Positions 10,732 through 51,528 of a DNA stretch of 64,000 bases are shown one piece after another. The stretch covers positions 16,882-80,881 of the forward strand of contig JAJDVG010000055.1 in the NCBI GenBank assembly GCA_022826245.1, written 5' to 3'. This DNA is from Gammaproteobacteria bacterium. Lineage in GTDB: Bacteria > Pseudomonadota > Gammaproteobacteria > Steroidobacterales > Rariloculaceae. Both the position numbers and the translations under genes were made by a program. Within the stretch, counting starts at the first letter, position 1. The number at the start of each line of letters is the position of its first letter. A model generated the notes under the pieces. The model ran no database searches. It saw only the letters and a list, made by a program, of their open reading frames with translations, and was not told the origin of the DNA.

Positions 10732-11003
10732 GCGGGAGGCGCACTGCGGGTCGCTTGAAACGCGCGGTGACTACGTCCGAACAGGGTCGTCGTGGGCGTC
10801 GTCGCGGTGGTGCGGGGAAGCGCACCACGAGCCGCTTGAAACACGCCGTGAATTCATCGTGCAGGCTCAGTGTCAGCGTTGTCGCAGGGATGCGGGGAGG
10901 CGCACTACAGGCCGCTTGAAACACGCCGTAAATCCATCCCTGGAGGCTCCGCGCGCGCATCCCTGCGCGCGAGGGTTTCAAGCGGCCTGTAGTGCACCTC
11001 CCC
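10732..11003. repeat. Palindromic repeat family A, copy 1: two degenerate 80-bp half-units (10732, 10812) followed by a 110-bp nested palindrome (10894-11003)
   Basis: Left arm GGGGAGGCGCACTACAGGCCGCTTGAAAC (10894-10922) and right arm GTTTCAAGCGGCCTGTAGTGCACCTCCCC (10975-11003) are complementary at 28/29 positions; repeat units start at 10732, 10812, 10892. Confidence 0.9.
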
Positions 11004-47446: not shown

Positions 47447-50400
47447 ATGCAGTTACGCCAGATCGATCGCCTGGACGAGTGCTATAGGCTTCGCTCGGGC
47501 ACACTATTTCTGACGGGGCTGCAGGCGTTGGTCAGGGTGCTGCTGACGCAGCGCCAGCGCGACGAACGCGAAAACCTCAATACCGCGGGCTTCGTCTCGG
47601 GCTATCGCGGCTCGCCGCTCGGCGGGCTCGACCGGGAGCTGTGGCGCGCCCGTCCGTATCTGGATTCCGCGCACATCAGGTTCGAGCCAGGGCTCAACGA
47701 GGATCTCGCCGCAACCTCCATCTGGGGCGCCCAGCAGGCGAACCTGTTTCCCGGCGCCCGCTACGACGGCGTGTTCTCCCTCTGGTACGGCAAGGGTCCG
47801 GGCGTCGACCGCTCCGGCGACGCGTTCAAGCACGGCAATTCGGCCGGCACTTCGCGGCACGGCGGAGTGCTCGTGGCTGCCGGCGACGACCACACATGCA
47901 AGTCGTCATCGCTGCCGCACCAGAGCGAATACGCCTTCATCGATGCGATGATGCCCGTGCTCAACCCGGCCGACGTGCAGGAACTGCTCGACTACGGGCT
48001 GTACGGCTTCGCGCTGTCGCGCTTCAGCGGTTGCTGGGTCGGACTCAAGGTGACTCAGGAGACGGCCGACGCAACGCAGACGGTGTCGAGCGATCCGGAC
48101 GCGCTCAGGATCGTCACGCCCGATTTCCAGATGCCGGCGGGCGGACTCAACATTCGCTGGCCCGACCCGCCGAACGATCAGGAGTACCGCCTGCAGCGCC
48201 ACAAGCTCAGGGCCGCCCTGGCCTTCGTGCGAGCCAACGGCCTCAACCACGTCGCGATCGATTCGAGCCGGCCGCGGCTCGGCATCGTGACGACCGGCAA
48301 GGCGCACCTCGATGCGCTGCAGGCGCTCGAGGATCTCGGCATCAGCCGCCGCCTGGCCGGCGAAATCGGCATCAAGCTCTTCAAGGTGGGCATGAGCTGG
48401 CCGCTCGAACCGCAGGGTATCCGGGAATTCGCCGAAGGCCTCGACGAGATCATCGTCGTCGAGGAGAAACGCGGCGTCATCGAAAACCAGATCAAGGCGC
48501 AGCTATACAACTGGCAGGCGAAACTGCGCCCGCTGATCATCGGCAAACAGGACGAGCACGGCGAATGGATCCTGCCTTCGACGGGCGAACTCACGCCAGC
48601 GCGGATCGCTCGAGTGCTCGCGCGGCGCATGCAGCGGTTCCATTCGAGTACCGACGTCGACGCGCGCGTGCGCTTTCTCGAGGAACAGGAGCGCAACCTC
48701 GCACTCATCGACGGCGACGACGTCAAGCGGATGCCGCACTTCTGCTCCGGCTGCCCGCACAACACGTCAACGCTCATCCCGGAAGGCAGCCTTGCCGTCG
48801 GCGGGATCGGCTGCCATTTCATGGCCGCGTGGATGGATCGCGACAACGTGACGTACACGCAGATGGGTGGCGAAGGCGCGACCTGGATCGGGCAGGCGCC
48901 GTTCACTGAGACCGAGCACGTCTTCCAGAATCTCGGCGACGGCACCTACGCGCACTCGGGCATCCTCGCCATCCGCGCCGCCGTCGCGGCCAATGTCAAC
49001 ATCACCTACAAGATTCTCTTCAACGATGCGGTCGCGATGACCGGCGGGCAGCCCGTCGAGGGCAATCTCACGGTCGCGCGGGTCGCTCATCAGTTGGCCG
49101 CCGAAGGCGTCGACCCTATCGTCGTCGTCAGCAACGAGCCCGACAGCCACGACCGCCAATCGGGCCTGCCCGACGGCGTCGACGTGCATCACCGCCGCAA
49201 GCTCGACGGCCTCCAGCGGGCGCTGCGCGAACGCAAGGGCGTGTCGGCGCTGATCTACGACCAGACCTGCGCGGCGGAACTGCGCCGCATGCGCAAGAAG
49301 AATGTCGTGGAGGCGCCGAACCGGCGCGTCGTGATCAACGAACTGGTCTGCGAAGGCTGCGGCGACTGCAACACGATCTCGAATTGCCTGTCCGTCACCG
49401 CGGTCGAGACCGAGTTCGGCCGCAAGCGGACGATCAATCAATCCTCGTGCAACTACGACTTCAGTTGCCTGGAAGGCTTCTGCCCGAGCTTCGTCACGGT
49501 CGAGGGCGCCACCCATGCCCCCGCAAGACCGCTCGCATCGGAAACCGTGCCGAGCCTTCCGGAGCCGACGACAGCGGAACTCGGCACGGCATACAACATC
49601 CTGATCGCCGGCATCGGCGGCACGGGCGTCGTGACGGCCAGCGGCCTGATCGGGCTCGCGGCCCATCTCGAAGGCAAGGTCGTGCTCCAGCTCGATCAGA
49701 CGGGGCTCGCGCAGAAGTTCGGCGCGGTGCTCTCGCACCTGCGGATCGCCGCCGATCGCGAACGCGTTCACGGGATGCGCATTCCGGCCGGCCAGGTGGA
49801 TCTGCTGCTCGGCTCGGACCTCGTCGTCGCCGCGGAACACGAGTCGCTGTCGATGCTCTCGCCCGAACGCTCCGCCGTCATCGTCAACACGCACGAGGAA
49901 ATGCCGCCCCGTTTCATACGCGAGCGCGATTTCGCGTTTCCCGGCCAACGCCTGCTCGCGGAACTGCGCAGCCACAGCCAGTCCGAAAGGCTCTCGACGC
50001 TCGACGCAACACGGCTCGCTTCGGCACTGCTGGGCGACAGCATCGCGGCAAACGTCTTCATGCTCGGCTTCGCGTTCCAGAGCGGCCTGTTGCCGCTCTC
50101 GAGCGACTCCCTGTACCGCGCGCTCGAACTGTACGGAGTCAACGTCGAGGAGAACAAGCGGGCATTCGACTGGGGGCGGTTCACCGCGGAGAGCCCCGAC
50201 GAAGTCGAGCGAATGGCCGGCGGCATCGACGGCCGCGCGGACCATGCGCACACGCTGGCCGAAGTGATCGACCGCCGCAGGGAGTTCCTCGAGGGCTACC
50301 AGGACCGCGCGTATGCCGAGCGCTACACGAGCCGCGTGCAACGCATCGTCGAGCTCGAACAGAAACTTCGTCCGGGCAGCACGGCGCTCGCCGACGCGGT

Positions 50401-50929
50401 TGCCCGAAGCTACTTCAAGCTGCTTGCCTACAAGGACGAGTACGAGGTCGCGAGGCTGTACACGCAGACGGACTTCATCGCCGGTCTGCGCAAGGAGTTC
50501 GGCGATTCGTTCCGGCTCGGCTTTCACATGTCGCCGCCGCTCATCGCCGGCCGCGACGCGGACACCGGCAGGCCGCGGAAGTACCGTCTGGGAGGCTGGG
50601 TGCTGCCGCTGTTCCGGGTGCTGGCAAGGCTCAAGGGATTGCGCGGCACGAAATTCGACGTCTTCGGCTACAGCAGCGAGCGGCGTCTCGAACGCCGTCT
50701 CATCGCGGACTACGAAGCGTTGCTCGACAGGTTCGAAGCCGAACTCGATGAGCGCCGGCTCGATCTCGCGACCGAACTCGCGACACTGCCGCAGTCCATC
50801 CGCGGCTTCGGCCCGATCAAGGACGCCGCGGTCAAGCAATTCGAGAGCGTGCGCGATGCGCGGCTCGCGTGCTGGGTCGAGCGGTCCGACGCGAGCGACG
50901 AAACCACGCCGACGGCAAGCGCTGCGTAA
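47447..50929 (+). CDS. Indolepyruvate ferredoxin oxidoreductase family protein, single chain (1160 aa)
   Basis: SGYRGSPLGGLDRELWRA; CSGCPHNTSTLIPEGS; CEGCGDCNTISNC; GIGGTGVVTASGLIGLAAHLEGK. Confidence 0.92.
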   Translation: MQLRQIDRLDECYRLRSGTLFLTGLQALVRVLLTQRQRDERENLNTAGFVSGYRGSPLGGLDRELWRARPYLDSAHIRFEPGLNEDLAATSIWGAQQANLFPGARYDGVFSLWYGKGPGVDRSGDAFKHGNSAGTSRHGGVLVAAGDDHTCKSSSLPHQSEYAFIDAMMPVLNPADVQELLDYGLYGFALSRFSGCWVGLKVTQETADATQTVSSDPDALRIVTPDFQMPAGGLNIRWPDPPNDQEYRLQRHKLRAALAFVRANGLNHVAIDSSRPRLGIVTTGKAHLDALQALEDLGISRRLAGEIGIKLFKVGMSWPLEPQGIREFAEGLDEIIVVEEKRGVIENQIKAQLYNWQAKLRPLIIGKQDEHGEWILPSTGELTPARIARVLARRMQRFHSSTDVDARVRFLEEQERNLALIDGDDVKRMPHFCSGCPHNTSTLIPEGSLAVGGIGCHFMAAWMDRDNVTYTQMGGEGATWIGQAPFTETEHVFQNLGDGTYAHSGILAIRAAVAANVNITYKILFNDAVAMTGGQPVEGNLTVARVAHQLAAEGVDPIVVVSNEPDSHDRQSGLPDGVDVHHRRKLDGLQRALRERKGVSALIYDQTCAAELRRMRKKNVVEAPNRRVVINELVCEGCGDCNTISNCLSVTAVETEFGRKRTINQSSCNYDFSCLEGFCPSFVTVEGATHAPARPLASETVPSLPEPTTAELGTAYNILIAGIGGTGVVTASGLIGLAAHLEGKVVLQLDQTGLAQKFGAVLSHLRIAADRERVHGMRIPAGQVDLLLGSDLVVAAEHESLSMLSPERSAVIVNTHEEMPPRFIRERDFAFPGQRLLAELRSHSQSERLSTLDATRLASALLGDSIAANVFMLGFAFQSGLLPLSSDSLYRALELYGVNVEENKRAFDWGRFTAESPDEVERMAGGIDGRADHAHTLAEVIDRRREFLEGYQDRAYAERYTSRVQRIVELEQKLRPGSTALADAVARSYFKLLAYKDEYEVARLYTQTDFIAGLRKEFGDSFRLGFHMSPPLIAGRDADTGRPRKYRLGGWVLPLFRVLARLKGLRGTKFDVFGYSSERRLERRLIADYEALLDRFEAELDERRLDLATELATLPQSIRGFGPIKDAAVKQFESVRDARLACWVERSDASDETTPTASAA

Positions 50930-50940
50930 CTTCCGGCTGT

Positions 50941-51132
50941 GCCGGGAGGCGGACTACCGGTTGCTTGAGACATCGGTACGTGCGTTCAGGCAGGCTCGGC
51001 GTGCGCGGCGTCGCGATGTTGCGGGGAGGCGTACGACGGGCCGCTTGAAACACGCCGTGAATACATCCATGTAGGCTCCGCGCGCGCATCCCTGCGCGCG
51101 AGGGTTTCAAGCGGCCCGTCGTACACCTCCCC
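50941..51132. repeat. Palindromic repeat family A, copy 2: one degenerate 80-bp half-unit (50941) plus 110-bp nested palindrome (51023-51132)
   Basis: GGGGAGGCGTACGACGGGCCGCTTGAAAC (51023-51051) vs GTTTCAAGCGGCCCGTCGTACACCTCCCC (51104-51132): 28/29 complementary; half-unit spacing 80 bp. Confidence 0.9.
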
Positions 51133-51186
51133 TTGGCTCGTCGCGGATTGGGACCGGTGGTTGTGACGCGAGTGGTGGGGTGTGGG

Positions 51187-51528
51187 TTATCGCCTGCGGC
51201 GCGCCTCCTCGGCGGTTGCGCAGCGGATGCAGCGGTCGGCGAAGGGGTAGGCCTCGAGTCGCGCCATCGGGATCTCCTCGCCGCAATCGGCGCAAGTCCC
51301 ATAGGCGCCGTTCTTGATCTGATCGAGCGCCTTGGCGATCTTGCTGAGCTCGATCCGCGCTTCGTTGCCGAGCGCGTCGACGACTTCGGCATTCTCCAGT
51401 TCCTGAGCCTGCTCCTGGGAGTCGGCGCTGCGTCCGGCCGTGAGGTTCTTCTTGATACGAGCGAGACGAACCGTGACCTCGTCGCGCTTCGCGATCAGGG
51501 TGCGCTCAATGTCCGCAAACTGGTCCAT
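51187..51528 (-). CDS. DksA/TraR family C4-type zinc finger protein
   Basis: YGTCADCGEEIPMARLEAYPFADRCIRCA. Confidence 0.92.
   Translation of the reverse strand: MDQFADIERTLIAKRDEVTVRLARIKKNLTAGRSADSQEQAQELENAEVVDALGNEARIELSKIAKALDQIKNGAYGTCADCGEEIPMARLEAYPFADRCIRCATAEEARRRR

Follow-up and report, generated by a model that had tools for sequence, protein, structure and literature searches.

Half-units of a dispersed YPAL-like palindromic element probably arise by in-place tandem duplication at its 5' side in a gammaproteobacterial genus

The window, by which we mean the whole stretch of 64,000 nucleotides analysed here, contains a 110-bp palindrome preceded by a decayed copy of its own left half, both located between the 3' ends of two convergent genes. 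The features found at this locus are the following.

47447-50929, forward strand: upstream gene, 1160 aa, which reads as an indolepyruvate ferredoxin oxidoreductase; its stop lies 13 bp before the half-unit
50943-51022, forward strand: degenerate half-unit, 80 bp (nhmmer E=1.6e-12 with a model made from the half-units of other loci; spacing 80)
51011-51022, forward strand: 5' edge of the element, 12 nt, TCGCGATGTTGC (consensus CGCGGTGTTGC), closing the half-unit linker (flank conservation, 20 single copies)
51023-51132, forward strand: intact palindromic unit, 110 bp, with outer arms of 29 nt at 51023-51051 and 51104-51132, 97% complementary
51054-51076, forward strand: inner hairpin 1 of the core (GCC..TAC-ATCCAT-GTA..GGC), with covarying pairs in 14 sequences
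51078-51103, forward strand: inner hairpin 2 of the core, whose loop ATCCCT at 51088-51093 is the half-unit break point (pair covariation and half-unit endpoints)
51133-51152, forward strand: 3' edge of the element, TTGGCTCGTCGCGGATTGGG (consensus TTGGCTTGTCGCGG) (flank conservation, 41 copies)
51187-51528, reverse strand: convergent DksA/TraR-like gene (codon-bias gene call, name read off the sequence), its stop 54 bp past the palindrome

Orthologues of the upstream gene are 55-86% identical, and the closest named relatives of the host, judged by one protein, are gammaproteobacteria with identity up to 58%. As single-strand DNA the intact unit folds at -52.3 kcal/mol (z -12.2), and the conserved edges, ~12 nt on the left and ~20 nt on the right, are parts of the element.

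Read from its start, the half-unit comprises a left arm, a decayed inner hairpin 1, the left strand of inner hairpin 2 in diverged form and a copy of the 12-nt 5' edge. Its left arm starts at 50943 and that of the intact unit at 51023, a distance of exactly 80 bp; the sequence-only reading, which had placed a degenerate unit at 50941 and the intact one at 51021, was therefore right on the period and within 2 bp on the coordinates. When a profile HMM was trained on 32 half-units from elsewhere, leaving out both loci of the window, it matched 50944-51022 (E=1.6e-12) and both half-units of a second locus at 10.7 kb (~1e-17); beyond half-units, its matches in the window were solely the palindromes and their reversed right arms. 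An ungapped arm comparison at the 50943 locus gave 26 of 56 positions, which is not unusual for this GC-rich window, and would miss the half-unit because a 1-nt deletion follows the arm. At the second locus two half-units precede the intact unit:

10733-10813, forward strand: outer half-unit, 81 bp (profile HMM, E=1.7e-17)
10814-10893, forward strand: inner half-unit, 80 bp (profile HMM, E=1e-17)
10894-11003, forward strand: intact palindromic unit (palindrome detection and profile HMM)

The linkers of the two loci agree at 32 of 42 positions, bearing out the resemblance to the linker at 10862-10891 that had been noticed from the letters.

The palindromic repeat is present in ~70 copies in the host genome (G000; 3.6 Mb, 62 contigs). 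This genome and the two others of the genus, G001 and G002, have the look of draft or MAG assemblies. Several of their contigs end inside elements, so that the numbers of copies and arrays are lower bounds and the arrays may be longer than they appear. In G000 the contigs C3, C8, C9, C12, C13, C21, C24, C26, C38, C39, C52, C54 and C56 end inside or at most a few hundred bases from element copies; the assembly breaks at these places, and the copy number is therefore underestimated. The three genomes together hold 25 arrays with 38 half-units, 34 of them 78-81 nt long and all 38 on the left-arm side; ten loci with half-units at ~80-bp spacing belong to the host. Extras on the right-arm side are few, partial and irregularly spaced (L137, L143, L148, L168, L219). 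It had been proposed that copies lacking half-units, or lacking the 80-bp spacing, would speak against a periodic process: most copies are indeed single, but where half-units are present their spacing is nearly always 78-81 bp. Two subfamilies can be told apart by the inner arm, TTGAAAC with GCC/GGC and TTGAGAC with GCG/CGC, the half-units being mostly in the first; many of them, including the one at 50943, are decayed (identity 0.60-0.70). Shorter direct repeats of 29-52 nt at L017, L030, L151 and L214 have the same 5' edge and end inside the outer arm or shortly beyond it, so the right endpoint is not always the apex of hairpin 2. At L231 (1400-1511) the inner core has the opposite orientation to its outer arms and edges, as though it had been turned round between the arms, and at L120 (~1200 and 1503) two cores of opposite orientation lie ~300 bp apart with outer arms that differ, each well paired. 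A simple pattern scan of ~35 loci outside the genus showed no half-unit arrays.

Over their first 29 nt, half-units are closer to the full unit beside them (0.88) than to full units elsewhere (0.80), a difference reached in 0 of 10,000 permutations; the same test in G001 gave 0.83 versus 0.78 (p=0.002). Neighbours in one array are also more alike (0.82) than half-units of different arrays (0.72), and the linker at L282 repeats a flank found at that locus only. When the number of half-units was compared across the related genomes, as the sequence-only reading had suggested, orthologous loci were found to differ by whole half-units: 2/1/0 at L004/L146/L153, 3/0 at L172/L143, 3/1 at L171/L131 and 3/3/1 at L006/L136/L155. 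At L002/L144 the relative has one outer and two inner half-units. Both host half-units match the outer one alone (0.96-0.98), and the inner pair has a private linker marked by a 2-nt deletion; units were thus added separately in each lineage. The own-locus resemblance and the whole-unit differences indicate that half-units arise in place by tandem duplication, in line with the earlier proposal of a shared amplification process with one half-unit gained or lost per step. An age gradient with the newest units beside the palindrome found no support, the values being 0.81/0.82/0.79 by order along the arrays. The data show common endpoints and a period of ~81 bp at many loci, arrays on one side only, arms particular to each locus and half-unit numbers that vary between orthologous sites. 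The element at 51023 itself has no recognisable counterpart in G001 or G002, and G001 has a short spacer alone between the two genes.

Half-units run from the 5' edge of the element as far as the hairpin-2 apex, and at L009 the half-unit keeps the unmutated hairpin strand GCGCGCGCGTCC up to the loop, where it is joined to TCGCGGTGTTGC. These endpoints and the L009 junction suggest a stall at the hairpin with a restart at the 5' edge, and replication slippage provoked by the palindrome is the likely cause of the half-units. The palindrome would fold in single-stranded DNA during replication; synthesis would halt at the inner hairpin and restart at the 5' edge of the element, giving the first half-unit, and slippage between the resulting 81-bp direct repeats could then add or remove one unit per step. 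The same instability, acting in the opposite direction, would delete palindromes and leave scars. Slippage alone fails to explain the one-sidedness, since the right arm never forms comparable arrays, and at some loci half and full units may have been mobilised together. SbcD is a nuclease that cuts hairpins; a search gave no match to it in the host genome or in G001, with a positive control, a circumstantial observation that fits tolerance of palindromes.

Three sites that hold a full element in the host retain in G001 only the right edge and the final ~12-17 nt before it. When both genomes were scanned in full by pattern, solitary right ends turned up in G001 at those three sites only, and in the host nowhere save at contig ends; since they are confined to sites where the host has a full copy, they are likelier scars than pre-existing insertion targets, and the latter explanation for the "empty" sites was rejected. 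Several copies in G002 are without their right half. Both observations imply that, besides the gain of half-units, there is loss of palindromes.

Concerning the role of the element, 56 copies could be tested against codon-model gene calls. Not one of them is intragenic; 30 are flanked by convergent genes and only 5 by divergent ones, the gene stops being typically 10-60 bp from the element. Judging from this position and from its fold, its main function would likely be to provide a hairpin at the 3' ends of the convergent transcripts on either side, a role proposed for YPAL and REP elements (PMC2229807, PMC3733652).

Taken jointly, our best explanation is that a non-coding, YPAL-like palindromic mini-element (~12 nt of 5' edge, a 110-bp palindrome and ~20 nt of 3' edge) is dispersed in the genome and the intact unit is one of its copies, that the half-unit at 50943 is an in-place tandem duplicate of its 5' part, between the 5' edge and the hairpin-2 apex, and that slippage, palindrome loss and a 3'-end role complete the picture; we assign to this whole a probability of about 0.68.

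Half-units could instead be truncated new insertions, the element copying itself beside an existing copy and the 5' part alone landing when copying ends at the hairpin. Abortive copying of that kind would give a 5' edge common to all half-units, those of 29-52 nt included, with 3' endpoints that vary, and YPAL has been described as mobile (PMC2229807); yet the arms are specific to their own locus, adjacent units have private changes in common, no mobilising gene was found, and RAYT (PF01797) is absent from all six genomes searched with a positive control, so we regard it as improbable. An equally low weight goes to a composite of half and full unit that formed once and then spread, the 80-bp spacing going back to one ancestral event with later whole-unit slippage. 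It would account for the near-constant endpoint and the 81-bp length at many loci, and whole elements are clearly dispersed; against it, arms are common within a locus and different between loci, most copies are single, and the linkers at L009 and L171 retain hairpin sequence lost in others, suggesting separate ages or origins.

Were the half-units independent, selected modules for binding protein or RNA, as in BIMEs, their strict spacing would be functional, and the YPAL and REP elements of other bacteria do have an effect on the stability of mRNA (PMC2229807, PMC3733652); the decay of many half-units, that of the reported locus included, their absence from most copies and their loss in relatives make this very hard to sustain. 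As for chance similarity in a GC-rich window, the poor ungapped arm comparison is what could be said for it, and it is refuted by the match to a profile drawn from outside loci and by a layout repeated at many loci, in agreement with the earlier argument that one period at two loci is hardly fortuitous.

The core of the element was also found well beyond the genus. A covariance model of the core, whose pairs covary, was run on 274 sampled genomes of the class and found it in 44 of them (L284-L333), patchily distributed over many gammaproteobacterial families, often with at least 20 copies per genome and in many genomes with at least 21 scored matches. Within copies the outer arms pair at a mean of 0.85-0.99 over 24 nt in all sets except G285 (0.64, poor in the register tested), whereas arms of different copies do not pair (0.39-0.53). 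Within G275, matches between many of the copies nevertheless extend over 110-126 bp, arms included; the arms are therefore related and covarying, not new each time, and capture of the arms from the target site was rejected on these copies. At L297, L302, L292, L332 and L333 (G104, G161, G072) an outer inverted repeat of the type TGTTCCGAATA ... TATTCGGAACA flanks the palindrome and may mark where a larger mobile unit truly begins and ends. A speculative extension, which we consider rather doubtful, is that a gammaproteobacteria-wide family has one conserved two-hairpin core whose outer arms vary yet stay paired through template switching between arms, and that in this genus the same replication process, running one way, writes strings of half-elements beside the palindrome. 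If it were true, each locus would record its own replication errors.

Repeats of this kind seem to grow and shrink stepwise beside a hairpin, and they provide a natural, replicated record of the effects of long hairpins on a bacterial chromosome, at dozens of loci in three related genomes, with stepwise gains, losses and scars. Given the defined endpoints and the stepwise changes, models of palindrome-driven slippage become testable without engineered constructs. Moreover, the core of the Yersinia YPAL is not confined to Yersinia and is part of a family present in many gammaproteobacterial families, whose arms diverge yet stay complementary.

Several other assignments were tried and rejected. 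The loops look like those of TwoAYGGAY RNA on the reverse strand, but no Rfam match to it was obtained, and a plasmid or phage origin of the core was dismissed after neither collection gave a match. Among viral contigs the exact pattern matched once, at L253, a complete Ysr224/YPAL copy that scores 134 bits with the Rfam Ysr224 model, whereas the core in the window scores 25 bits, under the 70-bit gathering threshold. A RAYT-driven REP/REPIN element was rejected as no Y1/RAYT gene (PF01797) was detected in the six genomes.

Among known systems the closest is YPAL/RU-2, the Yersinia palindromic element of ~168 bp (PMC2759123, PMC2229807), inside which Rfam Ysr224 (RF02770) lies. Aligned locally with the YPAL/RU-2 sequence printed in PMC2759123, the core scores 38, the best of 2,000 shuffles being 19, and GCCGTRAATACATCCATGTAGGCTC is nearly identical; the alignment is limited to ~75 nt around the core, in a palindrome of 110 bp. 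The core has the hairpin with an ATCCAT loop and the GC hairpin with an ATCCNT loop, while the outer arms and edges are unrelated and the 168-bp length does not apply, so that on sequence grounds the element is YPAL-like by its core and is not a copy of YPAL. Both are intergenic and palindromic with empty and filled sites, and among the orthologous sites compared here some of those of the relative are scars of former copies. YPAL has a variable target-site duplication of 3-26 bp, and the flanks at the sites compared here are too diverged to reveal one. YPAL is co-transcribed with upstream genes and alters mRNA stability, with which the place of our element at gene 3' ends would be compatible. 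Tandem arrays of 5' half-units found no mention for YPAL in the literature covered, which was partial and without the original 2006 description; as far as that search reached, one-sided half-unit arrays are undescribed.

REP, REPIN and BIME elements with RAYT (PMC3116915, PMC3733652) are likewise palindromic, intergenic, located at gene 3' ends and between convergent genes, and clustered; REP measures 20-40 bp, whereas the element described here is a long branched hairpin of 110 bp with 29-bp arms, and in contrast to BIME/REP clusters its arrays consist of half-palindromes in direct orientation. ERIC/RU-1 and RU-3 are also short palindromic intergenic elements of Gammaproteobacteria, with cores that differ when judged by eye, without alignment, against the sequences in PMC2759123. 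Finally, a Porphyromonas gingivalis MITE with an internal minisatellite (PMC4596501) is reported to carry a tandem repeat likewise; it belongs to a different phylum, and in our case it is the 5' half of the element itself that is repeated.
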